Shown: positions 1,269 to 62,716 of the stretch, piece after piece
How positions within the stretch are numbered: the first letter of the stretch is position 1
Layout: each line of letters begins with the position of its first letter
NCBI GenBank assembly: GCA_013912105.1
Contig: JACERY010000001.1
Span: forward strand, 1-64,000
Direction of reading: 5' to 3'
Source of the DNA: Acidimicrobiales bacterium
GTDB lineage: Bacteria > Actinomycetota > Acidimicrobiia > Acidimicrobiales > UBA8592
DNA: 64,000 nucleotides
Position numbers and translations under genes: made by a program
The notes under the pieces: model-generated
Told to the model about the DNA's origin: nothing
What the model saw: the letters and a program-made list of their open reading frames with translations, nothing else
Databases searched by the model: none

Positions 1269-1985
1269 TTAGCTGTTAGATTCAGCTGCTGTTCGAGATT
1301 TTGCAATCCATAGAATCATTAATCCGTAAAGGCCCTTTGCAGTAATATCTGCAAAAGTATACGCAACCTGACGGAGAGTTTCTAGCAATTCTGAATCGCT
1401 ATCAAAGATTGGGAATAAGTACGCGATTGGGTATACCAACCAAGTCGTTAGCAAAACATATGTGGCATTCTTGATCTGCCTTGCAACATCTCCAGTTTCT
1501 CTTTGCCCTGCTTTCTGCAATTCTGTGTACAAGGTTTTAAGAATGTATACAAACGGCAGCATTGCTAGAATCCAGAATGTCCACTTGGCGCCATTACTAT
1601 CAGCTACTTCGCCTGGATAACCCAAGCCGACCATCAGAATCGTCGCCGGCACTAACTTTAGCATCAGAGCGTTTCGATCTTTTTGTGCAACACCAAGAAC
1701 TATTAATAGTTCAATAATCAATAACGGCACAGTGATGAGCCAGTCAGCATACCTATAACCTTCGTTCATCACTTCGTTACCGAAGTCTGACCAAATCCTG
1801 TAGTAGTGATAACCAGCTATTCCGACAACAATTGCAGAGACAGCTATACCAGCTTGGTACTTCTTATTGACGGATTTCATTTGAGTTAAGAAGTAAACAA
1901 ATGCTCCGAACATCACTGCTGTTCCAAATGAGAGAACGTTGTACACAAGCGTGTAATCGTTGCCGCTCAACATTACATTGTCCAT
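1269..1985 (-). CDS. Type-1 microbial rhodopsin, predicted light-driven proton pump
   Basis: Helix C RYADWLITVPLLIIE gives D-T-E motif; AGYHYYRIW has the helix-B His; YTFADITAKGLYGLM has the Schiff-base Lys. Confidence 0.95.
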   Translation of the reverse strand: MDNVMLSGNDYTLVYNVLSFGTAVMFGAFVYFLTQMKSVNKKYQAGIAVSAIVVGIAGYHYYRIWSDFGNEVMNEGYRYADWLITVPLLIIELLIVLGVAQKDRNALMLKLVPATILMVGLGYPGEVADSNGAKWTFWILAMLPFVYILKTLYTELQKAGQRETGDVARQIKNATYVLLTTWLVYPIAYLFPIFDSDSELLETLRQVAYTFADITAKGLYGLMILWIAKSRTAAESNS

Positions 1986-45115: not shown

Positions 45116-46063
45116 CTAGAAAAATCCAATTGAAATCAACAGAAAAGCTACTAAGCCAGCGAGTATTCTGTAGTAACCGAAGACTGCGAAACTTCGTTTC
45201 TCAAGCCATCCCACCATCCAACGTACTGAAAGAATCGCAGAAGAAAAAGCTACCACTAGCCCAATTGTTGGAGAGAGGTAACCAAAGTTATTGATAATTT
45301 CTTGACCATCATTACCGATTTCGTAAATAGTTGCTGCTGTTAGGGTCACAAACCCTAGAAGGAAACTAAATTCGACTGCTGCTTTAAGCGACATGCCAAT
45401 CAGTACACCAGCGACAATAGTGACAAGGCTTCTGCTGACCCCCGGCCACAGCGCTAAGGATTGCACGAAACCAATTATTAGAGCTTGATTTAGACTTAGA
45501 TTTTCTAAGACAATCCCTTCTTCTTGAAATAGTCGTTTTCTCTGAACAAATAAGATGCTTGCTCCCCCGACTATCCAAGCTGCAGCGACAGGTGTCAGTC
45601 CATAAAGTTCATCCTTGACAAAATCAGCAGCAATATAACCAATCAAAGCAGTTGGAATGAACGCAACGATAAGAGCGTTGAGTATTCTTCGCCCATCGCT
45701 ATTATTACCTCGAAGGCCTTGGAACATTTGTTTAAGGCGGTTTCGATACAGAACTGCGACTGCGAAAATAGCTCCAATTTGAATACTAATGATATAGCTG
45801 TCAATTGCTTTTTCTGTAGTTTGAGTTTGTCCCAAATCCAGAATTTCCTTCGTTGCTAGCAGGTGTCCGGTTGAACTAATCGGAAGGAACTCGGTTAAGC
45901 CCTCAACAATACCTAAAATAATTGCTTGCCAAAGAGCCAAGTTATCACTTGATGCAGCGTTGTTAGCCCCGAAAGCAGGATCTACAAACAAGAATAAAAA
46001 TAGAGCCATTACAACAACAGTTGTTAAAGCCCTTTTGGTTTTCTCGGTTTCTTTAAATGTCAT
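45116..46063 (-). CDS. uppP: Undecaprenyl-diphosphatase
   Basis: ILGIVEGLTEFLPISSTGHLLATKEILDLGQ, SLALWPGVSRSLVTI. Confidence 0.95.
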   Translation of the reverse strand: MTFKETEKTKRALTTVVVMALFLFLFVDPAFGANNAASSDNLALWQAIILGIVEGLTEFLPISSTGHLLATKEILDLGQTQTTEKAIDSYIISIQIGAIFAVAVLYRNRLKQMFQGLRGNNSDGRRILNALIVAFIPTALIGYIAADFVKDELYGLTPVAAAWIVGGASILFVQRKRLFQEEGIVLENLSLNQALIIGFVQSLALWPGVSRSLVTIVAGVLIGMSLKAAVEFSFLLGFVTLTAATIYEIGNDGQEIINNFGYLSPTIGLVVAFSSAILSVRWMVGWLEKRSFAVFGYYRILAGLVAFLLISIGFF

Positions 46064-49501: not shown

Positions 49502-50530
49502 ATGAACTCTGAACCGAATCCCTTAAAAGAGAGTGAGAAATCTCACTGGTGGAAGAGTAAATATGTAACCGTGACGTTACGGGTTGGCCTAAGCGTTGCT
49601 TTATTGCTGGTGGTAATCATATCTATGGATGATATTGATTGGAATGAATTACCTGATTGGAATAACCAAACTGCTTTCTGGACTATTGGCGCTTTCGTCT
49701 TTACTTTGACTGGATTTGTTCTAGGGGCTGTTCGCTGGCAAAGAGTTTTGATAGCCCTTGGGATTCACCAACCGCTTCCTAGTTTATTTAGCCACTATAT
49801 GGCTGGGCAATTCGTTTCAAATTTTCTTCCAACCACTGTTGGTGGCGATGTCGTAAGAGTTGGACGCCTAACTCGCGATATTGATGACGGTCCAATTAGT
49901 TTCACTTCTGTTGTTTTTGAACGGTTAAGCGGGTGGCTTGTACTTCCACTAATTACATTTATTGGATTCGCCATTAACCCAGGGCTGACTGGATTAGGGA
50001 ACTCTACACGAATCCCACTAGTGGTAGGATTTATTACGCTTATAGGTCTTGGTTTAGTGCTTCTTTTATTGGGTAATGACCGAATAGGAAAAGGTCTTCG
50101 CAACCGTAAAGGAGTTCTCCGGTTTGCTAACGCAATCCATCTAGGCATTGATCGGCTTCGACAAAATCCTAAAGCTGCAAGAGAAGTAATCATTTCCGCT
50201 TTCGCATATCAATTTGTTCTTCTTCTAGCAGCAGGCTGTGCTGTTGAGGCTTTAGGCATAGACCAAGTCGGATTAACAGCTTTAATGGCGTTTATCCCGG
50301 CAGTGCTAATCATTCAGGTGCTTCCATTAGGAATTGGCGGACTCGGTGTCCGAGAGGGAACTCTTGTTGTCTTCTTATCAGGGATTGATGTTCCAAGTGA
50401 ACAAGCACTTGCTTTGGGTTTAGCGATTTATGCTATGACCTTAGTTGGCAGCATGATTGGATTCCCTCTCCTTATATTCGGAGGAAGAAAAGGCTCTACT
50501 GAGGATGACTCAAACGAAACTGAGATGTAG
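49502..50530 (+). CDS. Lysylphosphatidylglycerol synthase TM region/UPF0104 flippase-like protein
   Basis: 342-aa polytopic ORF; QFVSNFLPTTVGGDVVRVGRL, LPLGIGGLGVREG motifs. Confidence 0.85.
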   Translation: MNSEPNPLKESEKSHWWKSKYVTVTLRVGLSVALLLVVIISMDDIDWNELPDWNNQTAFWTIGAFVFTLTGFVLGAVRWQRVLIALGIHQPLPSLFSHYMAGQFVSNFLPTTVGGDVVRVGRLTRDIDDGPISFTSVVFERLSGWLVLPLITFIGFAINPGLTGLGNSTRIPLVVGFITLIGLGLVLLLLGNDRIGKGLRNRKGVLRFANAIHLGIDRLRQNPKAAREVIISAFAYQFVLLLAAGCAVEALGIDQVGLTALMAFIPAVLIIQVLPLGIGGLGVREGTLVVFLSGIDVPSEQALALGLAIYAMTLVGSMIGFPLLIFGGRKGSTEDDSNETEM

Positions 50531-50543
50531 TTGAGAGGAACCG

Positions 50544-51344
50544 ATGGGGAACCAAGACCTTTCAAAAAATCACTATCCAAATAATGTATCGTGGATTCGC
50601 GAGTTGCTTCTGATAGGAATCTGTTATGCATTCTATTCTTGGGTCCGTAATCAATTTGGTTCGGCTTCAGTAACTGCACAGACGGCTTATAGGAATGCAG
50701 AATACATGATTGATCTTGAGAAATCTTTTGGTTTATATTTCGAGCCAACCCTTCAAAGTTGGTTTCTTGATTGGGAATGGTTTCTAAGGTTTTGGAACAT
50801 CTTCTATGGGACTTTTCATTTTATTGTTACGTTAGGCGTTCTGCTGTTTCTATACTTTCGCAAACCAGATGACTATCCGAAATGGAGAACAATTGGGTTG
50901 TTAGCTACAGGTTCTGCTCTGATCGGATTTGCTGCCTTTCCGCTTATGCCACCTCGACTTTTAGGAAACTGCCGTCCAGTAGGTGCATGTATAGAGAGTC
51001 CTTACCTTGACACTATGGCAGAGTACGGGGGTTTGTGGAGCTTTGATTCAGGACTTATGGAAAGTCTTTCGAACCAATATGCTGCAATGCCTAGTCTTCA
51101 TTTCGCATGGGCTCTATGGAGCTATCTAGCCGTTAGAAAGCATTTAAGGACGAGGATTGCCAGGTTCACGATAGCGACCTATCCCTTACTCACCCTTTTC
51201 GCCATCATTGTCACAGCAAATCATTATTGGATTGATGCCGCTGGAGGAGTTCTAGTTCTCTTTTTTGGTTACTTTTTTGGTATTCGCTTGCAGTCTTGGT
51301 CTAACCGCAAATCCAGTCTCTTTCAAACCTTAAAGTTGACGTGA
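50544..51344 (+). CDS. PAP2/Aur1-like membrane phosphatase or inositolphosphotransferase
   Basis: AAMPSLHFAWALW and TANHYWIDAAGGV, IFYGTFHFIVTL. Confidence 0.85.
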   Translation: MGNQDLSKNHYPNNVSWIRELLLIGICYAFYSWVRNQFGSASVTAQTAYRNAEYMIDLEKSFGLYFEPTLQSWFLDWEWFLRFWNIFYGTFHFIVTLGVLLFLYFRKPDDYPKWRTIGLLATGSALIGFAAFPLMPPRLLGNCRPVGACIESPYLDTMAEYGGLWSFDSGLMESLSNQYAAMPSLHFAWALWSYLAVRKHLRTRIARFTIATYPLLTLFAIIVTANHYWIDAAGGVLVLFFGYFFGIRLQSWSNRKSSLFQTLKLT

Positions 51345-51429: not shown

Positions 51430-53277
51430 ATGCTTGAACAAATAACTTGCCCAGCAGACTTGCGAAGACTATCCCATGATGACTTGGGATTGCTCAGCCA
51501 TGAGATCAGAAATTTTATCGTTGAAACCGTGCAAGAAAATGGTGGGCATCTTGGCTCAAACTTGGGCGTGGTCGAATTAACTATCGCTCTACATCGCGTT
51601 TTTGATTCACCACGAGACATTATGCTTTGGGATACTGGGCATCAAGCCTATGTGCACAAAATGCTGACTGGAAGATTGGAAAACTTTAAATCTCTCCGAA
51701 AGGCTGGGGGGCTATCCGGGTATCCAAGCAGAGCTGAATCAGAGCATGATTGGATTGAAAACAGCCATGCATCTACAGCACTAAGTTACGCTTTCGGGAT
51801 AGCAACAGCTCAAGCTAGTGACGAAGGAGAAGGGCGGAGAGTTCTTGCGGTAATTGGCGATGGAGCCCTTACGGGAGGCATGGCATTTGAAGGACTTAAC
51901 AATCTGGGACATGCAGGAAGCAACGCAATAATTATTCTGAATGACAATGGCAGGTCCTATGCCCCCACCGTTTCACTTCTTTCGGATAGTTTAAAGAAAT
52001 TACGCAATAACCCTAAGTACCTTGAACAACAAGAGAAGCTTGAGAATAAAGTAAAAAGCTTGCTTCCATCAAAAGAAGTAATGGGATTATCTGTTGAACG
52101 GGCAATAGATGCCGCAAAGGCAGCTGTCAGAGAAATTTGGGACCCAACATCATTTTTTGAGGACCTAGGGCTCAGATATAACGGCCCCTTTGACGGCCAT
52201 AATATTGAAGCGCTAGAAAAAGCATTTCGGAATGCCGCTGGCTTTGAAGGACCAACGGTAATACACGTGCTTACTGAAAAAGGACGGGGTTATGGACCTG
52301 CTGAAAATGATCCGATAAAAAGACTTCATGACATTGGGAAACCAAAACCTGAAAGCTACACCGCCGCTTTCACTGAAATCCTGATAAAAGAAGCAGAAAA
52401 TAGGTCCGATTTAGTAGCGATCACGGCAGCTATGCCTGATAGCACTGGCCTGCTTCCATTTTCGGAGCGTTTTCCGGAACGTTTCTTTGATGTTGGGATC
52501 GCGGAGCAGCATGCCACTACTGCTGCAGCCGGAATGGCTATGGGTGGCTTAAGGCCAGTCATTGCTGTGTATGCGACGTTTCTTAATAGAGCATTTGATC
52601 AAATAAATTTTGATGTAGCTCTTCATAATCAACCGGTTATCTTTTGCATTGACCGTGCAGGAATTACAGGACCAGATGGAGCTTCTCATCATGGGCTGCT
52701 CGACATGATGCTCCTTTCAAAAGTTCCAGGTATGACAATGTTTGCTCCATCCTCTTATCAAGAACTGCAGCAAATGTTTTCAGATGCTTTAGAAATAACG
52801 GATGGCCCAATAGCTATCCGATATCCAAGGACGCCTGCTCCTTCAGTGGAGGAAGCTGAAGTTGGTAAAGGAATCCGAGCGAGACATGTTTCTGAAGGTA
52901 AGGATGTTTGTATTCTTTCCGTAGGGAAGATGCTTCCCGAAGCCAAAGAAGCAGCCGAACTGCTTTCTGCTCACGGTCTTACTTGTAGCATTTGGGATGT
53001 TCGTTGCATTACCCCACTTGATAATGAAATGATCGTTGACGCTCATGGACACAAAGTTGTTGTGACCATCGAAGATGGAGTCTCTGAAGGAGGGGTTGGT
53101 TCTGCGATTTCAGACATGTTGCAGAATCTTCCTGCAGCCACACCTCAAATTCATGTTATGGGTGTGCCCATATCGTTCATTGATCAAGGGAATCCGCAGG
53201 ATCTTTTGACCTCGCTCGGGTTAGATGCTGAAGGAATAGTTGAAAGAGTTCTTTCTAGATTCAATAAGAATCCGTAA
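51430..53277 (+). CDS. dxs: 1-deoxy-D-xylulose-5-phosphate synthase
   Basis: GGHLGSNLGVVELTIALHRVFDSPRD, VIGDGALTGGMAFEGLNN, DRAGITGPDGASHHGLLDM. Confidence 0.96.
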   Translation: MLEQITCPADLRRLSHDDLGLLSHEIRNFIVETVQENGGHLGSNLGVVELTIALHRVFDSPRDIMLWDTGHQAYVHKMLTGRLENFKSLRKAGGLSGYPSRAESEHDWIENSHASTALSYAFGIATAQASDEGEGRRVLAVIGDGALTGGMAFEGLNNLGHAGSNAIIILNDNGRSYAPTVSLLSDSLKKLRNNPKYLEQQEKLENKVKSLLPSKEVMGLSVERAIDAAKAAVREIWDPTSFFEDLGLRYNGPFDGHNIEALEKAFRNAAGFEGPTVIHVLTEKGRGYGPAENDPIKRLHDIGKPKPESYTAAFTEILIKEAENRSDLVAITAAMPDSTGLLPFSERFPERFFDVGIAEQHATTAAAGMAMGGLRPVIAVYATFLNRAFDQINFDVALHNQPVIFCIDRAGITGPDGASHHGLLDMMLLSKVPGMTMFAPSSYQELQQMFSDALEITDGPIAIRYPRTPAPSVEEAEVGKGIRARHVSEGKDVCILSVGKMLPEAKEAAELLSAHGLTCSIWDVRCITPLDNEMIVDAHGHKVVVTIEDGVSEGGVGSAISDMLQNLPAATPQIHVMGVPISFIDQGNPQDLLTSLGLDAEGIVERVLSRFNKNP

Positions 53278-53286
53278 CTAGCCTTT

Positions 53287-53925
53287 TTAAGACTCAAAAA
53301 ACGGATTTTCACCAGCTTCATGATCTGTTACATCGACAATCTCTGTTATCTCAGGAATTGCTTCAGCAATCATCACTTCTATACCTTGTCTTAGCGTTGC
53401 TGCGGACATTGCGCATCCTTGACAGCCTCCGCCCATTAGAATGTGGGCTGCTGTTCCCTGCATTTTTACTAGCTCCGCATACCCTCCATGAGCAGCGAGT
53501 GATGGGTTTATATGTTGATCGAGTAATTGTTGAAGCTTTTCGGCAGGCGAACCGGAAAGTTCAATGTCTTCGCCTTCTAACATGCTTGGCCTATTAGGGT
53601 TTCGTATAACTAAACCGCCCTGCATTGGATTACTTGGAAGGTCTAATGTTGCTCCAGTCAGGTCTTCAAGGTTCTCTTTAGGAATTATTACGGCTAGATC
53701 ATCCACGTGATAGATATGGTCATCTTCTGAAGCATCACTGATGTCCTCAAATGATAGATCATAAGAAAATTCTGGGCCGTTTGAACCAGTAATACTGACC
53801 CGTAGGCCAGTTGTTTCAGGACTGTCTTCTTCTGACCGAACTTCACGAACTTTTTCTAATGCAGCATCTGTTACTTCTAATGCTGTTACCGATGGTTCTT
53901 CTAGTTTTGTTTCGTTACCACTCAT
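53287..53925 (-). CDS. NfuA-like Fe-S cluster carrier (degenerate A-type domain plus NifU C-terminal domain)
   Basis: HINPSLAAHGGYAELVKMQGTAAHILMGGGCQGCAMSAATLRQGIEVMI. Confidence 0.9.
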   Translation of the reverse strand: MSGNETKLEEPSVTALEVTDAALEKVREVRSEEDSPETTGLRVSITGSNGPEFSYDLSFEDISDASEDDHIYHVDDLAVIIPKENLEDLTGATLDLPSNPMQGGLVIRNPNRPSMLEGEDIELSGSPAEKLQQLLDQHINPSLAAHGGYAELVKMQGTAAHILMGGGCQGCAMSAATLRQGIEVMIAEAIPEITEIVDVTDHEAGENPFFES

Positions 53926-54071: not shown

Positions 54072-57000
54072 ATGGCCGGCATGATGAGATACTTCAGAAG
54101 ACACGAGGCGTTCTTCCGTCGTGCGGGGATTGCTGTTTTGCTTTTAATATCTTTTACGTTGCGTGTTTGGAATCTCAATTGGGACCAGGGAACACACCAG
54201 CACCCTGATGAAAGGTATTGGAGCATAGTCACTGCAGACCTTATTTGGGAAGATCCTACCGGTTACTTTGATTCACAAAATTCCACTATGAACCCTTATC
54301 AGTCCCAAGATACGTGGGTGTATGGAACGCTGCCGTTGTTCTCAGTTAAAGCAGCAGCTGAGTTTCTTGAAATGGATTGGTTTGTGTCGGCGAATATAGT
54401 CAAGTTTGCAGACGCACTAGGCATCAACCTTCTTGAGTCATCAACCGACATGGAAGGAAATACTTTTCAAGAGAAATTATTTAACAGTCGTTACGAAGTG
54501 CAACTCGTTGGCAGATTACTTTCAGCGCTTCTGGACAGCGGAACAGTTCTTCTTGTCTATTTCCTCGGCAAAGCAATCTTTAATCGGTCAGTTGGTTTTC
54601 TCAGTAGCATTTTACTGACTTTTACGCCGCTACACCTTCAGTACAGCCATTTCCATGGTTCAGAAATTTGGACAACATTTTTTGCTACGACTGTAGTTCT
54701 GTTATCCATATATCTCTTTAATCTTATTTCATCAAAATCTTCCAATGCTCCACCATTCGATGCAGGGATTTTTCTTAGGGCATCTACTATTGGCGCGTTC
54801 ATTGGCATGGCGACCGCATCTAAATTCAATGCATTTCTTATTTTCGCCGCCCCTTTAACTGTCTATGCGCTCGTGTGCTTTCGGAATACTTCAATACGCT
54901 CGAATACGAGAAGGCAAGGAACTTATCGCATAGCAGATTTTTTATCTTTACTTTCGGCGACTGGCCTTTCAGCAATCACATCTTTCCGGATTTTTCAACC
55001 ATACGCTTTTGATGGCTTCTGGAAACTCAGTAAAGATTTCATTGCTGATATAAACTATTTAGAAGCTGTGAACAGTGGGGGAAACTACCCATGGGTTGTC
55101 CAATGGGTTGGACGCAACACACTTCTTTACCCGCTTGAGTCAATCTTTTGGTCGGGCATGGGCCCAGCTATAAGTATCACGGTTTGTCTCGGCTTGGCTT
55201 TGGGCATTAGAGAAATAATTCGTAATCAAAACTTTATTTTGCTTGCACCCTTATCAGCCATTTGTGTAATGGTTTGTCTGGTAGCCCAGCAATTTAATCC
55301 TCTAATACGTTATTTATTGCCCATATATCCAACTGCAATAGTTTTCGGTGGTTATGGCATTTATAAGTTGTGGATATTTGGGAAAGTAAAAGTTGAAGAA
55401 AAGTACTCATGGTCCGTTCTTTCTAAAGCAGGAACAATCTCTGCAGCACTTTTATTATCTGTTTCTATTTTTTGGGGAGCCGCATTTATCAACGGTGTTT
55501 ACAACTCGACTCATCCCAAAATAGAAGCAAGCACTTGGATTAATAAAAACATTGATGCTGGATCAACGTTGACATCGCAACTATGGGATGATTCTCTTCC
55601 TATTCGAGATAAGAATTTCTCAGACAAGAAGTACGGACAAGTGCAGTTAGATCTTTTTCGTCCAGATAGCTGGGTAGATCCCGAAACAGGCGTTTCAAAG
55701 ACTAGCAATCTTTTAAACCAACTAGATCAAAGTGATTACATTGTTGAAGCGAGCAACAGAATCTACGATTCGGTACCGCGGATTCCAGCAAAATATCCAG
55801 CAACTTCAGCATATTTTCGTTCTTTATTTTCTGGAGAACTAGGTTTTAGACAAGTCGCTGAGTTCAAAAATACGCCTTCATTATTTGGATTGGATCTACC
55901 TTCACGCATAACTGAAGAAACTTTCTCTGTTTACGACCACCCGACAGTAACTATTTGGGAGAAAACATCTGATTGGAGTATTGAAAGAGCCGAAGCAATC
56001 TTGAATCCATTCGCCGCTGCAAGAGCTCCCAATCTAGAACCTTCTTCTGGTGCTTGGAATGCCTTGATGCTTGAACCCGAGGTTGCGAAAGAACTTGAAA
56101 GCGGTTCAACATTTAACGAAATGTTCTCTCCAAGCGGAACTTCTGGCTCTTTGAATTGGCTATGGTGGTTTCTCTGGCTTCAATTAGCAGCTTTCCTTGT
56201 TTTACCGTGGTCTTTGCCGCTATTTAGTTCACTCAAGGACAACGGCTACGGCCTGAGTAAGATTCTAGGATTTCTCACTAGTGGACTACTTACATGGATA
56301 CTTGTTTCGTGGGATTTGTTTAAGTTCAATAGCACTACATGCATATTATCTCTAATTATCATTGGAGTCTTCGGGATAGCAAATAGCTATAGGAAGCGCA
56401 AATACCTAATAGACCTAGCTAGAAGTAGCAGAAACATTTGGCTTGTTACTGAAATAGTTTTTACCCTGGCTTTCTTGTCTGTTCTGCTACTTCGCTATAT
56501 GAATCCTGACTTATGGGATTCATATCGGGGTGGGGAGAAACCAATGGAATTGGGTTACCTCACATCAATAGGAAGATCTAGTGAATTGCCTCCATATGAT
56601 CCTTGGTTTGCTGGAGGAGTTATCAATTATTATTACTTTGGTTGGTTTCTTCTAGCAGTTCCAATGCGTACTTTGGGAATACTTCCTGAAATAACTTTTC
56701 AACTTGGAATAGCTACTTTTGTATCGCTTGCTGTAATTGGAGTATGGACCTTAGCAGTGAATTTAATAAGGTCAACTGCAGATTCGAGAATTTCAAACCG
56801 AAAAAATCTCTCATCTTCGCTTATTTTCGGCACACTAGCAGTGTTATTTTTTAGCGTCTTCGGAACTTTTGACGCAATAAGAAGACACCACCAACGGTTT
56901 AGCGAAATTAGTTCCTGGAATTTTTTGTCAGACTGGCCGTTTATTGGTTCACTAGTCGAAACCTTTGGGGGACTTTGGGCATGGGTGCGAGGTACACGTG

Positions 57001-58742
57001 TAGACACTTTTGATTGGTGGGGTCCTAGCCGAGTTAACAGTGGGAATTTTGATATCACCGAATTCCCGTTCTTTACATTCTTATTTGGGGATCTCCATCC
57101 ACATTTAATGGGTATGTGCCTGTTCGCCCTCGTGCTTTGCTTATGTTTCTCGTACGCAATACATTGCCGAAATGGCGAACAGAAGTCTTCGGCTTTAATA
57201 GCAATAGCAACAGGGATAGGGCTTGCTGTTGTTCGAATGACTAACACATGGGATTTTCCAACGCTAGTTTTGATTTCAATTGCAAGTCTGCTTTACGGCA
57301 TTTCCGTTTTCAAGGTCCGCTCTCTAGAAGATAATTACCCCACCTACTTTGGTGAATCTGGATTGTGGATAGTGACTGGATTAAGTCTTTTCGTTAGTTC
57401 CCTCATTTCAGGTGGAGGATTCTTATCTTTTTTTGCACTTTTCGTTGTTTCAGTAGCATGCATAGGGACTTTAGTTAGCTCGACTAGAAGATATCGTCTT
57501 CTTATTCTGCTTCGCCATGTATCTCTGGCATTAAGCATTCACGTAATCGTGATAAACCCTTTTAGAACGCGCAATCAAACATTTGACTTAGGATTACATC
57601 GATCTGAGTGGGTTTCACCTTTCAGTGATTTTCTTTCTCATTGGGGACTATTTATAAGCATCGCAACTGTTTATTTCATAACTATCTTTCTTGAAACCAG
57701 AAAGGGGAATACCGAAAAACTTCCCAGAAAAAAAACTCAGCCGAATTTGATGATAACCAAACGTGTTATGCAACCTATTCTTCTAGCTTTGACTCTACTA
57801 CTTGGCATAACAGTTGGTTGGGCCTTTGCGATCTCAGTCCTAGGGGCAGGAATGGCCTTCCTCTTCCTTATTGAAACGACTCAAGTCAATCCTTCTAAAG
57901 TGGCGAGAATTTTTTCTCTCCTACTATTGACCCTAGGGTTCTTGCTTTTAGCAGGCCCAGAAATTTTAACAGTTAACAATGATGTGGCGAGAATGAATAC
58001 TGTATTTAAATTCTGGTTGCAGAGTTGGATAGTTTTCTCTGTGGCTTCCGCTTTCGCTATCTGGGAGATTTGGATATTTATCAGAGACCGTGACAATCGG
58101 GATCCAAGAGTATTCTCTCTTTCCCGGATTTCCGGTATAGGTTTTACATGCTTGCTTTTAGTAGGACTTACCTATCCCGCCTCATCTTTCGTCCCGAGAA
58201 TTAGCGATCGGTTCTCCACCGCCTATAAAGGGCTTAATGGGATTGCTTACCTCCAAGAGAAACCCCTAATTGTTCGTTATGACAACGGAACTGATGAGCC
58301 TCCATCACAAGTGTCAATCGGCGATGACCTCCCTATCATCCAATGGCTTAGAGAGTCAGTAAAAGGGAGCCCAACAATCGTTGAATGGACAGGTGATAGT
58401 TATGATTGGAATAGCAGAATATCAATTCATACTGGGTTACCTACGGTTCTTGGCTGGTCGTCCCACCAGCGTCAGCAACGACTTAACTACCAGAGCTTGA
58501 TTGCCCAACGAAAACAGGATGTGCAAAGGCTGTATCAAATACCCGATCAAAAATTCGCTACGCAATTTCTATTAACGTATAACGTTCGATACATAATCGT
58601 GGGGACGCAAGAGAGACGATTTGGGGATAACCAGGCTCTACTAGCATTAGATACCCATCCAGCTCTTGACATAGTTTTTGAAGACACATTAAATAAGATC
58701 TATTTCGTAGATACCGAAAAGCTTTGGGAATTGACTCAGTAA
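54072..58742 (+). CDS. Giant polytopic membrane protein: N-terminal GT39-like domain fused to DUF2298/Chlor_Arch_YYY domain
   Basis: 1556 aa; N-terminal QGTHQHPDERYWS and LVGRLLSALLDSGTVLLVYFLGKAIF; second half DPWFAGGVINYYYFGWFLL, FPFFTFLFGDLHPHLM, NTWDFPT. Confidence 0.9.
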   Translation: MAGMMRYFRRHEAFFRRAGIAVLLLISFTLRVWNLNWDQGTHQHPDERYWSIVTADLIWEDPTGYFDSQNSTMNPYQSQDTWVYGTLPLFSVKAAAEFLEMDWFVSANIVKFADALGINLLESSTDMEGNTFQEKLFNSRYEVQLVGRLLSALLDSGTVLLVYFLGKAIFNRSVGFLSSILLTFTPLHLQYSHFHGSEIWTTFFATTVVLLSIYLFNLISSKSSNAPPFDAGIFLRASTIGAFIGMATASKFNAFLIFAAPLTVYALVCFRNTSIRSNTRRQGTYRIADFLSLLSATGLSAITSFRIFQPYAFDGFWKLSKDFIADINYLEAVNSGGNYPWVVQWVGRNTLLYPLESIFWSGMGPAISITVCLGLALGIREIIRNQNFILLAPLSAICVMVCLVAQQFNPLIRYLLPIYPTAIVFGGYGIYKLWIFGKVKVEEKYSWSVLSKAGTISAALLLSVSIFWGAAFINGVYNSTHPKIEASTWINKNIDAGSTLTSQLWDDSLPIRDKNFSDKKYGQVQLDLFRPDSWVDPETGVSKTSNLLNQLDQSDYIVEASNRIYDSVPRIPAKYPATSAYFRSLFSGELGFRQVAEFKNTPSLFGLDLPSRITEETFSVYDHPTVTIWEKTSDWSIERAEAILNPFAAARAPNLEPSSGAWNALMLEPEVAKELESGSTFNEMFSPSGTSGSLNWLWWFLWLQLAAFLVLPWSLPLFSSLKDNGYGLSKILGFLTSGLLTWILVSWDLFKFNSTTCILSLIIIGVFGIANSYRKRKYLIDLARSSRNIWLVTEIVFTLAFLSVLLLRYMNPDLWDSYRGGEKPMELGYLTSIGRSSELPPYDPWFAGGVINYYYFGWFLLAVPMRTLGILPEITFQLGIATFVSLAVIGVWTLAVNLIRSTADSRISNRKNLSSSLIFGTLAVLFFSVFGTFDAIRRHHQRFSEISSWNFLSDWPFIGSLVETFGGLWAWVRGTRVDTFDWWGPSRVNSGNFDITEFPFFTFLFGDLHPHLMGMCLFALVLCLCFSYAIHCRNGEQKSSALIAIATGIGLAVVRMTNTWDFPTLVLISIASLLYGISVFKVRSLEDNYPTYFGESGLWIVTGLSLFVSSLISGGGFLSFFALFVVSVACIGTLVSSTRRYRLLILLRHVSLALSIHVIVINPFRTRNQTFDLGLHRSEWVSPFSDFLSHWGLFISIATVYFITIFLETRKGNTEKLPRKKTQPNLMITKRVMQPILLALTLLLGITVGWAFAISVLGAGMAFLFLIETTQVNPSKVARIFSLLLLTLGFLLLAGPEILTVNNDVARMNTVFKFWLQSWIVFSVASAFAIWEIWIFIRDRDNRDPRVFSLSRISGIGFTCLLLVGLTYPASSFVPRISDRFSTAYKGLNGIAYLQEKPLIVRYDNGTDEPPSQVSIGDDLPIIQWLRESVKGSPTIVEWTGDSYDWNSRISIHTGLPTVLGWSSHQRQQRLNYQSLIAQRKQDVQRLYQIPDQKFATQFLLTYNVRYIIVGTQERRFGDNQALLALDTHPALDIVFEDTLNKIYFVDTEKLWELTQ

Positions 58743-58770
58743 GGGCGTTAATCTCTGGGAATTATTCTAA

Positions 58771-60786
58771 CTACCGGGAAAAAGAAACGTTTTTGCACTC
58801 ACCTTCATAAATTGGAATCTTTGTATCTTGCGGGTTATTCCAAACACCATAGTTTTGAGCTTCTTGGATTACGGATTTTTTAACAAATACATTTCCGCTT
58901 AATGAAGCAGGGCACTGCGAAAGTGAAGAGTCGATGTCCGCCCATGGTTCACGACTCCAAAACCATTTACCCCAACGAGACACAATACCTGGGAATTGAC
59001 TGATCTCTGAAGCCCCAGTATCAAAGTCTGGAACCCACCACCATCGATGGTTGTATGAAAAAATCTCGTAACCAGCTATCTGGAGCTCAATTTTTCCTAC
59101 ATCCCAATAAGGGAGAATCAACAAATCAGGACTTTCCTGAAGTTCTGGAAACAAATCACCTTCTATGACTGCATACGTTGATGTAGGAAAGTCACGCAGA
59201 TACCAGCCATATGGCCAATAAACATCGCTATCTATCACAACGTTTAAATGCTCGCCTGTTTCAGCGAAGTGAGCACGGTCTAAATCAAAGAGTTGCTTAC
59301 TCCAGGATTCTACTTCCGGTGTTGCTTGCCCAGCTTGAACGAATAGTTCTTGAGGTTCACTACCCCGCGTATAAGCCGTAAGTAAACTTTGCGTTGCAGA
59401 GAAAATAAGGAAAATTCCAAAAATCATTGAAAGCGTCCGTCTAAACTTTGATTCCTTACTTTTTTGATAAACAATTTGGAATCCAAGCCCAGCAAGAATT
59501 GCGAACGGGAAAAGTGGGTGAATAACTAGCCACGGCATTCGTTCCGATGCCCAAGAATACATAATTAAGGTTCCCCCAGCCCACCAAATTATTAGCTGGC
59601 CGAACAAGTTTGGCCTCCTAAAAACTCTCCAAATACCCAATACAGCAAGAAAAAGTATCAGCCATTCATAGGCTGATAGAAGCGTTAGGTAGTACTGCCA
59701 ACGAGAATCTCCCCTAAAGCCATCTTTTTGCTGCCCTACCCAATAGTTAAAACCAGCTGTCAACCCATTACGAAGTGCGCTGTTAGGCGCAGCAGCAGTT
59801 TCTGGACCTGAAAATCGCGTAAAGAATTGCGAGAACAAGGCTATGAATAACGTAGCCGATATGAGAACAGATAATATCCATTGACTGAGCGTTGGGGTTC
59901 TAAAAGATCTCACAATTGGAAGTTGAATAATATCTTGATTGCTTTTGAGCATTCTGTAAGAGGTTGCTAGAACAATTATGAGAAATAGGCATATGTACAG
60001 CCCTAATTTACCTATTGTCCTCCCTCCTCCGCTGTTCCCTACCCAAAGGAAAACACCGAGGAAACTTATTAACCCTAAGAGAAGAGTCCACCGGCGTATG
60101 AAAAATATGTGATCGCGATGTTCTGCATTCGAATAATTATTCTTGACAGACGCTACTAAGTTCTCTTGGATCACAAATAGAAGCAAGAACACTCCAAAGA
60201 GGAAAATCATCAATAATACTGATTCTTTTATAGCCATTCCGGTAACAAGTGAAGAAAGTAGAGCAGTTGGATGCCACCACTTGGGTTCATTAAGAAACCC
60301 AAAAAGCGCTGCGACAAAAACTGTTGTTGCTAGAAGGAAAAACATATCTTCCCTACCAAACCTTGAGAAATACAACATGCTGGGGCTAATGAGAAGAAGA
60401 CTGCTGGCCGAAATCGTTCCGACTGGCCCTAAATGCTTTCGCCAGTGCCAAGGGAAGCCTAAAAGCAAAATTCCAGATAAGGCAGCTAATAGTCGTGCGG
60501 TAAAATCTGACTCGCCAAACAGCCAGAAAAAGCCAGCAGTGATATAGAAACGGAGTGGGCCATGATAGATCGGGTTATATCCAGCGTAATTACCATCTAA
60601 GAAACGCAGAGAAAACCAGGCATCTAAACTTTCATCGTGGTGGAAAGGGTAATTTCCTAAAGCAATTAATCTTGTTACTACTCCAGCGAGCAAAATAACA
60701 AAAAATAACCGCCGGAGAATGCCCGGAGCGAGAGTAAAGCCACCCCGCAGTTGCATATTTTTCAAATTATTCTCAAATCTATTCAT
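58771..60786 (-). CDS. TIGR03663-like (Agl23-type) GT-C membrane protein
   Basis: FPFHHDESLDAWFSLRFLDGNYAGYNPIYHGPLRFYITAGFFWLFGESDFTARLLAALSG: DE, HGP and Arg residues in the family-defining positions. Confidence 0.85.
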   Translation of the reverse strand: MNRFENNLKNMQLRGGFTLAPGILRRLFFVILLAGVVTRLIALGNYPFHHDESLDAWFSLRFLDGNYAGYNPIYHGPLRFYITAGFFWLFGESDFTARLLAALSGILLLGFPWHWRKHLGPVGTISASSLLLISPSMLYFSRFGREDMFFLLATTVFVAALFGFLNEPKWWHPTALLSSLVTGMAIKESVLLMIFLFGVFLLLFVIQENLVASVKNNYSNAEHRDHIFFIRRWTLLLGLISFLGVFLWVGNSGGGRTIGKLGLYICLFLIIVLATSYRMLKSNQDIIQLPIVRSFRTPTLSQWILSVLISATLFIALFSQFFTRFSGPETAAAPNSALRNGLTAGFNYWVGQQKDGFRGDSRWQYYLTLLSAYEWLILFLAVLGIWRVFRRPNLFGQLIIWWAGGTLIMYSWASERMPWLVIHPLFPFAILAGLGFQIVYQKSKESKFRRTLSMIFGIFLIFSATQSLLTAYTRGSEPQELFVQAGQATPEVESWSKQLFDLDRAHFAETGEHLNVVIDSDVYWPYGWYLRDFPTSTYAVIEGDLFPELQESPDLLILPYWDVGKIELQIAGYEIFSYNHRWWWVPDFDTGASEISQFPGIVSRWGKWFWSREPWADIDSSLSQCPASLSGNVFVKKSVIQEAQNYGVWNNPQDTKIPIYEGECKNVSFSR

Positions 60787-62716
60787 TTATCTCGCTTACA
60801 TCATAGATTTGGTAACCACCACGGTCATAAACAATCCTGATTCCATCTGGAAGAGCCTGATTTTCTATCCATCGACTCTTTGATCCAGCAAAACCGTAGT
60901 TTTGTCTTTCTAGCGGGCCAAAGACAACATAATCAGTACCATACTTTGCAAGGCTTACTTTAAAATCATTTTCCTTTCCATAGATTTTTCGCAGGTCCTG
61001 ATCCCGGCTATACCAATCTTTACCAAGGTCATTAAGCCTGCCCGGGAAACCTGAGATAACAGATCTCCCAGTGAGAACTCTGATTGGGTGAGTATTCGTA
61101 TTTGCACTTGCGAAAACGCTACTCGATTTAGTATTTTCTCTTACCCACTCTCCCACCATGAGGTCACTCCCAGATAAATATTCGACTGGATACGGTGAAG
61201 TTGTTTGATCAACTGCTCGCCAAATATCTAGGAAACCAGTGAAAGTTAATGAAAAAATTAGCCCAACTGCAACGAAACATTTCACTCCACCTTTTGATAA
61301 AAGTTTCTCTATTACCTCCCCTACGAAAGGAGCTGCGAGAAGAAGAAATATGATTACGTACTTTGCGTTATTACCGGGCCAAAAGTGCCATATCGCTATA
61401 TTGGGGATAATAAGAAAAGCCAGAATAGGTAGCGCGTGTTTTCTGATTTCCGTTGTAGACCTCAGGATACCCAAAATAGCTATCGGAATAAATACTCCAG
61501 TATTAAGCAGCCAGAACCATAGAAAATTCCACATGTTGGTATTCCAAGAAGACTTGCCGAGCATCCAGAGAAAATGCCATTCTGTCCCATCACGATCTGG
61601 CCATTGCCACAACACGATAGGTAATCCAATAGCGAGCGCCGGTACAAGATATAGTCCCCATTGCTTTCTGCGATGCATAGCTGCCCATATAACTGATAAT
61701 AGGATGAGCGTTCCGAATGCGAAAACATGAAAAATTGGTAATAAACCTGTGAAAAGACCAGCATAAAGATACGCCGGGGAACTTCTCTCTTTACGATTCT
61801 CCCATAAGAGAATTATGACGAAAATTACGGCAGAGAATCCTATCAAAGTCGGTCTCTGAGGATAGAGAAAGCCCGTAACCGCATTGTCTACCCAGTTTCT
61901 ATCGAAGCCATCAAATGCGTAACTTCGAGGAAGATCCCCGAACACGCTGAAACCTTCTTCTGGTAGATCAGTAAATAGAAATCGATATACTGCAGCTGTC
62001 CCTCCGGAAAGCAGAAAAACGAGAACCGCTAACATAGCTGACCGGTGGTTAGAGGTGAATCGCTGAAAACCGAAATATAACATTGGCGGGAGAAAAATAG
62101 ATAGAAAAAAAGTTGATACTTGAAGAGATACGAAAATATCTAGGCCGAGTGGAACAAACATTGCTGCAAACCAATCAACGCCGAAATGGTATGAAAAACT
62201 TTCTCCAGCAGCTGTTGGGAGCTCGGGTGGGAAATTGTCGCTGAAAGCAAACGATGAGGCATAAGCAAGGTGAGCAGACCAATCACCAAATACCGAAAGG
62301 TGAGCAGCAGTTACACCACCACTTGGAGATTTTCCAAATGAAATATGAAGTATCCTCGCTGAAAGAATAGAGCTTATCGCTATTAACAAAAGCACTGGTT
62401 TAGGACATCTATTGTCTCTCCAGCCGAGTTTGAAACGTGTAAGAAAACTTGCTGCATCAGCTTTGATAACAAGCTGGTTTTTAATCAGAAGCGGTGTTGA
62501 ACAGATAAACAAAAACCCGGTTGTGATGAGAATCATTTTCCCATTAACTGAAGTTGCCCAAGCTACGAAAAAGCCGAGCACCGAAACTATCACAGTGCCT
62601 AATAAAGCTCCGAAAACAATGCGTTCCTCAAGCAGAAACGAAGTTGGTATGGCATAGGTGCAGGTAAACCCTATTGCAATAATTGCTAGAAGAAAGAGAA
62701 CTGTAGTTATAGTCAT
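60779..62716 (-). CDS. Polytopic membrane protein, divergent DUF2298/GT-C-like
   Basis: 645 aa, about 13-15 hydrophobic segments; FGDWSAHLAYASSFAFSDNFPPELPTAAGESFSYHFGVDWFAAMF; 8-bp overlap with downstream 58771-60786 gene. Confidence 0.75.
   Translation of the reverse strand: MTITTVLFLLAIIAIGFTCTYAIPTSFLLEERIVFGALLGTVIVSVLGFFVAWATSVNGKMILITTGFLFICSTPLLIKNQLVIKADAASFLTRFKLGWRDNRCPKPVLLLIAISSILSARILHISFGKSPSGGVTAAHLSVFGDWSAHLAYASSFAFSDNFPPELPTAAGESFSYHFGVDWFAAMFVPLGLDIFVSLQVSTFFLSIFLPPMLYFGFQRFTSNHRSAMLAVLVFLLSGGTAAVYRFLFTDLPEEGFSVFGDLPRSYAFDGFDRNWVDNAVTGFLYPQRPTLIGFSAVIFVIILLWENRKERSSPAYLYAGLFTGLLPIFHVFAFGTLILLSVIWAAMHRRKQWGLYLVPALAIGLPIVLWQWPDRDGTEWHFLWMLGKSSWNTNMWNFLWFWLLNTGVFIPIAILGILRSTTEIRKHALPILAFLIIPNIAIWHFWPGNNAKYVIIFLLLAAPFVGEVIEKLLSKGGVKCFVAVGLIFSLTFTGFLDIWRAVDQTTSPYPVEYLSGSDLMVGEWVRENTKSSSVFASANTNTHPIRVLTGRSVISGFPGRLNDLGKDWYSRDQDLRKIYGKENDFKVSLAKYGTDYVVFGPLERQNYGFAGSKSRWIENQALPDGIRIVYDRGGYQIYDVSEINE

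Follow-up and report, generated by a model that had tools for sequence, protein, structure and literature searches.

The protein families TIGR03662 (PF10060, DUF2298 or Chlor_Arch_YYY) and TIGR03663, and their frequent co-occurrence, are already known to family curators. Both are widespread in marine SAR202 Chloroflexota and present in archaea, with almost no biochemistry. No literature was found for the two TIGR accessions, and DUF2298 was found only in a passing mention. What we take to be the marks of TIGR03663 in its family description are an invariant DE, an HGP motif and two arginines; its NCBIfam title is 'flippase activity-associated protein Agl23'. The purified Agl23 of Haloarcula hispanica translocates Man5GlcNAc2-PP-dolichol in liposomes and suppresses a yeast rft1 deletion (PMC11182771). 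An earlier note on the DNA described here held that neither family has a firm biochemical function in bacteria: no published activity was found for TIGR03662, and TIGR03663 is not without biochemistry, given the translocation of lipid-linked oligosaccharide by Agl23 (PMC11182771). Relatives of both families were analysed in a stretch of 64,000 nucleotides (nt) from an Acidimicrobiales bacterium (GenBank assembly GCA_013912105.1, contig JACERY010000001.1, positions 1 to 64,000; hereafter, the window), in which three adjacent genes, designated A, B and C, encode polytopic membrane proteins. With a probability of roughly 0.7, these are glycosyltransferases of fold class C (GT-C) that act at the outer face in one pathway, as two matched pairs of a protein O-mannosyltransferase-like (PMT-like) and a DUF2298-like unit. 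The features are as follows:

54072-58742, plus strand: A, open reading frame of 1556 amino acids (aa)
54072-56156, plus strand: N-terminal half of A (aa 1-695; A-N), PMT-like GT-C module, with HPDE (54201-54212) in the first outer loop and a soluble segment at its end
56157-58742, plus strand: C-terminal half of A (aa 696-1556; A-C), TIGR03662/DUF2298 module, with GGEKPMEL (56529-56552), PPYDPWFAGGVINYYYFGWF (56589-56648), DITEFPFFTFLFGDLHPH (57051-57104) and RMNTVFKFW (57990-58016)
58771-60786, minus strand: B, open reading frame of 671 aa, TIGR03663/Agl23-like, with HHDE (60631-60642), HGP (60556-60564) and SERMPW (59530-59547)
60779-62716, minus strand: C, open reading frame of 645 aa, with GDWSAHL (62267-62287), PPELPTAAGESFSYHFG (62180-62230) and NNAKY (61358-61372)

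Three adjacent polytopic open reading frames of 1556, 671 and 645 aa had been placed by the earlier note at exactly these positions, and the motifs that it named were recovered: HPDE (aa 44) and GGVINYYYFGWF (near aa 848) in A, HHDE (aa 49) and HGP (aa 75) in B. A and B are convergent, with a gap of 28 nt between them. C and B are on the same strand and share 8 nt, in which the stop of C and the start of B overlap (ATGAATAG), so that C-B look like a translationally coupled pair, C first. Promoter-like sites were below the count in shuffled sequence and terminator-like sites were at chance level. The host assembly comprises 1.9 Mb in 55 contigs and is ~90% complete; the genome had been described as actinobacterial-looking, and the related records are Acidimicrobiales metagenome-assembled genomes.

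Hidden Markov model (HMM) searches assigned A to TIGR03662 (3.3e-138, 462 bits against a cut-off of 300.25; PF10060, 5.9e-92) and B to TIGR03663 (2.6e-80, 270.6 bits against a cut-off of 126.25; PMT_2, 5.6e-09), the two families proposed beforehand. The TIGR03662 match of A spans model positions 5-726 of 727, and YYYxG is present in A as NYYYFG, in which Y158 and Y159 are invariant across 64 DUF2298 sequences. In B, D51, E52, P77 and R98 were invariant among 16 relatives, with H75, R142 and R145 nearly so. A-N scored 24.0 bits against PMT_2 and 28.7 bits in a second search (cut-off 26.1); its H44, P45, D46 and E47 were invariant in nine relatives. In their own genome, PMT_2 was found only in A and B.

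For C, no Pfam or NCBIfam family was found above cut-off, and TIGR03662 gave 22.8 bits over the last 70 model positions only. When its profile was aligned with that of 64 DUF2298 domains, hhalign returned 98.7% (E 2.9e-16, 580 columns), and C has SYHFG at the YYYxG site. By profiles and models, C is a strongly diverged DUF2298 homologue with a predicted GT-C fold, forming a new family. The idea that C is unrelated to A and B was discarded on the same 98.7% match. C had been noted before merely as another polytopic protein; hhalign and its slot in the locus show it to be, in diverged form, the equivalent of the separate DUF2298 protein found with Agl23 elsewhere.

The A-N and B profiles matched each other at 96.5% (E 9e-10), and control cross-comparisons between the two subfamilies gave 0.7-7%. 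Set against these controls, the matched pairs at 98.7% and 96.5% point to two subfamilies that are each present twice: PMT-like (A-N and B) and DUF2298-like (A-C and C). A is thus a fused pair and C-B the same pair unfused, in a presumed heterodimer-like pairing of a PMT-like with a DUF2298-like unit.

AlphaFold (AF2) models were built from alignments made in this study and compared with the PDB using Foldseek (E<=0.001). The DUF2298 domain of A was modelled with a predicted local distance difference test (pLDDT) of 92.9 and a predicted template modelling score (pTM) of 0.94, and C with a pLDDT of 79.5 and a pTM of 0.84. At this threshold, all nine PDB matches of the DUF2298 domain (STT3/oligosaccharyltransferase (OST) chains, DPY19, AftA) and all 20 of C (DPY19, STT3, PglB, AftA, ArnT) were GT-C enzymes; the structure check proposed with the earlier note thus favoured the GT-C fold for A-C and C. 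Template modelling (TM) scores to the matches were 0.2-0.5 over the whole chain at 10-14% identity, low values at which the models make the GT-C class clear and the substrate not. The GT-C assignment of B was taken from PMT_2 above cut-off, and that of A-N from PMT_2 near cut-off together with its relation to B. PDB sequence searches with the DUF2298 domain, C and B gave nothing useful.

A-C and C have the same layout, in which the first three helices are followed by a basic loop, then by a fourth helix and a large loop that carries the motifs. The motif loops were predicted to lie outside by the positive-inside pattern (simple hydropathy and charge scan), which supports outward-facing acidic motifs. 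Each of the four modules has conserved acidic residues in its first outer loop (HPDE, GGEKPME, HHDE and GDWSAH), namely D46 and E47 in A-N, E127 (domain numbering) in A-C, D51 and E52 in B, and D145 in C; by analogy with known GT-C enzymes, these may be the catalytic residues.

A search of 84,980 named genomes gave 78 loci. Nearly all intact relatives of A carry the ~1500-aa fusion (SAR202/Dehalococcoidia, Thermomicrobia, Ktedonobacteria and others). TIGR03663 was above cut-off in 48 of the 49 other fusion genomes, the exception being an assembly of 0.8 Mb. When 48 genomes were searched with PF10060, a separate DUF2298 protein, usually of ~800 aa, was found in addition to the fusion in every non-actinobacterial genome (43/43), and in 29 of these 43 it lies, by coordinates, upstream of Agl23 on the same strand. 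No second PF10060 protein was found in the actinobacterial fusion genomes (0/5). C is directly upstream of B in four actinobacterial genomes (loci L145, L146, L147 and L105), and in L115 it is within the same locus, not adjacent to B. With C near B and no second PF10060 protein, C fills the stand-alone DUF2298 slot in Actinomycetota, and the presence of the two-plus-two set in another phylum as well argues for one surface-sugar pathway. Among control genomes, those above cut-off for TIGR03662 and for TIGR03663 were identical (Haloferax volcanii and Methanosarcina acetivorans). In quick trees, fused and stand-alone DUF2298 sequences formed two groups with one exception, and the actinobacterial fusions fell among those of Chloroflexota; transfer of the fusion between phyla is suggested by this placement. 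That A might be a new fusion in this genome was ruled out, since this is the form usually seen in the relatives found, those in Chloroflexota included.

Within the order, a sample of 99 draft genomes from ~60 families was examined, the other genomes of the study also being drafts. A and C were each found in 17/99 and B above cut-off in 18/99, with two further fragments of B at contig ends. B and C occurred together in 17 genomes from five families; B without C was seen once, at a contig end, and C without B never (Fisher 3e-18). A BLAST result that left genome G070 without C was rejected, since a profile search finds C at C179:55416-57365. The block nfuA-A-B-C is syntenic in the genus, with dxs, the PAP2 phosphatase, UPF0104 and TldD/TldE on one side. 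It is present in most members of the genus, and also occurs in the family and in several further families of the order. This recurrence shows that A, B and C are real, conserved genes. Mean identity to the window proteins within the genus was 51-57% for A, B and C and ~80% for dxs, nfuA and UPF0104; such fast evolution would be expected of genes for surface glycans. Among 397 genomes sampled evenly from the phylum, TIGR03662 was found in the own genome only, so that the trait is rare there; with Agl23 in 48/49 fusion genomes, this agrees with the sporadic, co-occurring distribution that the earlier note had described. Thus shown by computation are the families, the fold, the gene order, a co-occurrence that is nearly obligate, and the fact that C is homologous to DUF2298 and A-N to B.

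Catalysis by the modules, a polyprenyl-phosphate donor and a surface glycan as product are what we infer for the two matched pairs. In such a pathway, a cytoplasmic family 2 glycosyltransferase (GT2), for instance the product of the gene 2 kb past C, would attach sugar to polyprenyl phosphate, and a flippase would turn the polyprenyl-phosphate sugar to the outer face. There, the acidic residues of the first outer loops would activate the acceptor and remove the sugar from its lipid carrier, the soluble C-terminal segments would bind the acceptor, and the GT-C modules, two in one chain and two as separate proteins, would build, finish or cap a surface glycan. Somewhat doubtful in its full form, and offered tentatively, is a wider proposal: a two-plus-two GT-C machine consisting of the fused double glycosyltransferase A and a B-C heterodimer, in a surface-glycan pathway common to Chloroflexota, some Acidimicrobiia and haloarchaea/methanogens, with C as founder of a new GT-C family that, in Actinomycetota, took the place of the separate DUF2298 partner.

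The GT2 candidate (G000:C1:64.7-65.4 kb; PF00535, 3.8e-17) lies past mutM and hemH, ~2 kb from C. NCBIfam matched it best to an undecaprenyl-phosphate aminoarabinose-type transferase (8e-16, under cut-off), and GT2 domains occur at five places in the own genome. Orthologues (at least 40% identity) were found in 12/99 genomes, all 12 with B. In L115, a GT2 gene and the start of A share 4 nt, and this GT2 gene is preceded by a flavin adenine dinucleotide (FAD) enzyme of the same family as the neighbour of the own-genome GT2. Chloroflexota have, after the DUF2298-Agl23 pair, a TIGR00374 flippase-like protein and a FAD protein, both of other subfamilies, and therefore only the GT2 is argued as a donor-side link. 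The UPF0104 protein of the window gave no BLAST match to Chloroflexota proteins at E<=1e-4, and orthology to them is accordingly not claimed. A donor-synthase candidate is thus nearby; the earlier note's 'full module' was too strong, in that the nearest GT2 lies outside the range it gave and no acceptor was identified. The GT2 and a FAD oxidoreductase (PRK07208-like) occupy the hemH-gyrA interval just beyond the window (L052:2655-4807; G000:C1:64654-66806). The FAD enzyme was not accepted as a core part, being found in genomes without the module and missing from several with it.

Several points weigh against outer-face glycosyltransferases of one pathway. No published activity was found for any TIGR03662-family enzyme, and the TIGR03663 relative with known biochemistry has been described as a flippase (PMC11182771). 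Whole-chain TM-scores of 0.2-0.5 are expected across GT-C and, for models such as these, are no proof of the same chemistry. A is missing from G053 and G075, both nearly complete and with B and C; A and the GT2 are not strictly required, as some B+C genomes have one or other missing. The Fisher values, like the co-occurrence counts, ignore shared ancestry, and the 49 other fusion genomes (mostly Chloroflexota) were selected for carrying A. The question of flippase or transferase also bears on how lipid-linked sugars cross membranes. If B, perhaps with C, were a translocase of lipid-linked sugar to the outer face, A would be the sole transferase: TIGR03663 is named for the flippase activity-associated Agl23, the H. 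hispanica protein both suppresses yeast rft1 deletion and translocates Man5GlcNAc2-PP-dolichol (PMC11182771), and Agl23 almost always occurs together with the A fusion, as a donor flippase would. We consider this improbable, however, as B keeps the PMT-type DE (invariant in 16 relatives), a catalytic feature without obvious need in a flippase, and is related to the PMT-like half of A, while a separate flippase candidate exists in the TIGR00374 flippase-like gene of the conserved flank.

Matches to STT3 and PglB, among the top Foldseek results for the DUF2298 and C models, recall an oligosaccharyltransferase-like system that moves whole glycans from polyprenyl diphosphate to proteins, and A-N is weakly similar to archaeal STT3 (TIGR04154, 1.8e-5, 23.4 bits) and to STT3A chains. 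Such a system is very improbable here: the TIGR04154 score is far below its cut-off of 450 bits, DPY19, AftA and ArnT, users of polyprenyl-phosphate monosaccharides, also match, and WWDYG was not found, with TFDWWGP (WWG) in A, WWWVP in B and no WWD in the translated sequences. Compatible with outer-face glycosyltransferases in matched pairs, as a narrower form, is that the proteins are arabinosyl- or galactofuranosyl-type transferases which, like Emb/Aft, build a wall polymer or lipoglycan and do not modify proteins. The Foldseek results include AftA, with Emb proteins as weaker hits of C, the FAD enzyme after the GT2 is weakly similar to UDP-galactopyranose mutase (2.7e-7), and a wall-active Rpf-like protein is encoded upstream of C in relatives. 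Against this, the FAD protein reaches only 30 bits where the mutase cut-off is 304 and is not confined to genomes with the module, and these bacteria have no known polymer structure; we regard this narrower form as possible, on the unlikely side.

Further features in and around the locus, including the conserved flank of the window, are:

49502-50530, plus strand: UPF0104/TIGR00374-type flippase-like protein (PF03706, 1.7e-36; TIGR00374, 42.2 bits, just under the cut-off of 43.2)
50544-51344, plus strand: PAP2-type phosphatase, conserved flank (PF14378, 9.8e-45)
53287-53925, minus strand: NfuA-like Fe-S protein, conserved flank (PF01106, 3e-19; synteny)
L034:349-1257, L039:3666-4571, L047:5136-6044, L048:11392-12267, L058, L105 and L145-L147: Rpf-like protein

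The UPF0104 protein is a possible accessory of the module, as is the PAP2 phosphatase, possibly for lipid carrier recycling; the NfuA-like gene is not thought to be part of the system. BacA (45116-46063, minus strand), UPF0104 and PAP2 (49502-51344, plus strand) and dxs (51430-53277, plus strand) lie in the conserved block upstream of the module and could bear on polyprenyl phosphate supply. In many relatives, a secreted protein that combines a coiled coil with an Rpf-like transglycosylase domain (PF06737) is encoded directly upstream of C; the window genome has no Rpf-like gene at that site and carries mutM there. The whole region is present as two divergent copies in one bin (L040 and L041; G016:C4 and G016:C49; dxs 78% and 86% identical to the window), which probably mixes two strains. 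An Agl23-like protein with C-terminal NHL repeats was seen at L110:14913-17954 (PF01436, 5.8e-45), the repeats being possibly a glycan- or protein-binding addition, and a Chloroflexaceae relative of A of 2782 aa (L123:1037-9385) has more than one DUF2298 copy. A hydrophobic protein of 545 aa without NCBIfam family lies between the stand-alone DUF2298 protein and Agl23 at L149:5888-7525, and a similar-looking one downstream of its DUF2298 at L153:1449-3101. The window also encodes a bacteriorhodopsin-like protein (1269-1985, minus strand; PF01036, 7.5e-34), which fits a sunlit marine actinobacterium.

Of the original interpretation as a whole, family membership of A and B and the GT-C fold hold, and corrections are needed for C, for Agl23 biochemistry and for the 'full module'. 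New are a two-plus-two composition whose members nearly always occur together, the family of C with the slot that it fills, support for a GT-C fold of DUF2298 and the link to a GT2. Two families listed as often co-occurring unknowns are thereby brought under a testable rule, a fused double GT-C protein plus a separate DUF2298-like/Agl23 pair; a predicted GT-C fold for DUF2298, candidate catalytic residues, the missing Actinomycetota partner C and a donor-synthase candidate are gained.

Among described systems, TIGR03663/Agl23 of H. hispanica is matched by B in scoring above cut-off, in DE, HGP and the conserved arginines, and in an obligate-looking TIGR03662 partner; B differs in being bacterial and in its pairing with C in place of DUF2298, and flippase activity has been seen for the H. 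hispanica protein only (PMC11182771). A agrees with TIGR03662/PF10060 by a full domain far above cut-off, by YYYxG and by the ~1500-aa fusion of nearly all relatives found, whereas C is homologous yet without a model match, has SYHFG for YYYxG and stands in for the stand-alone DUF2298 protein. A-N and B resemble the PMT/GT39 protein O-mannosyltransferases in the DE of the first outer loop and in their PMT_2 matches, and A-N differs from these by its junction to a second GT-C module and by low similarity. The DUF2298 and C models had significant fold matches to STT3/PglB, DPY19, AftA and ArnT alone, from which they are set apart by 10-14% identity, TM-scores of 0.2-0.5 and the lack of WWDYG here. 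In the EmbA-EmbB and Pmt1-Pmt2 heterodimers, two GT-C units work together; in the pairing presumed here, one pair is a single chain and the units come from different subfamilies.

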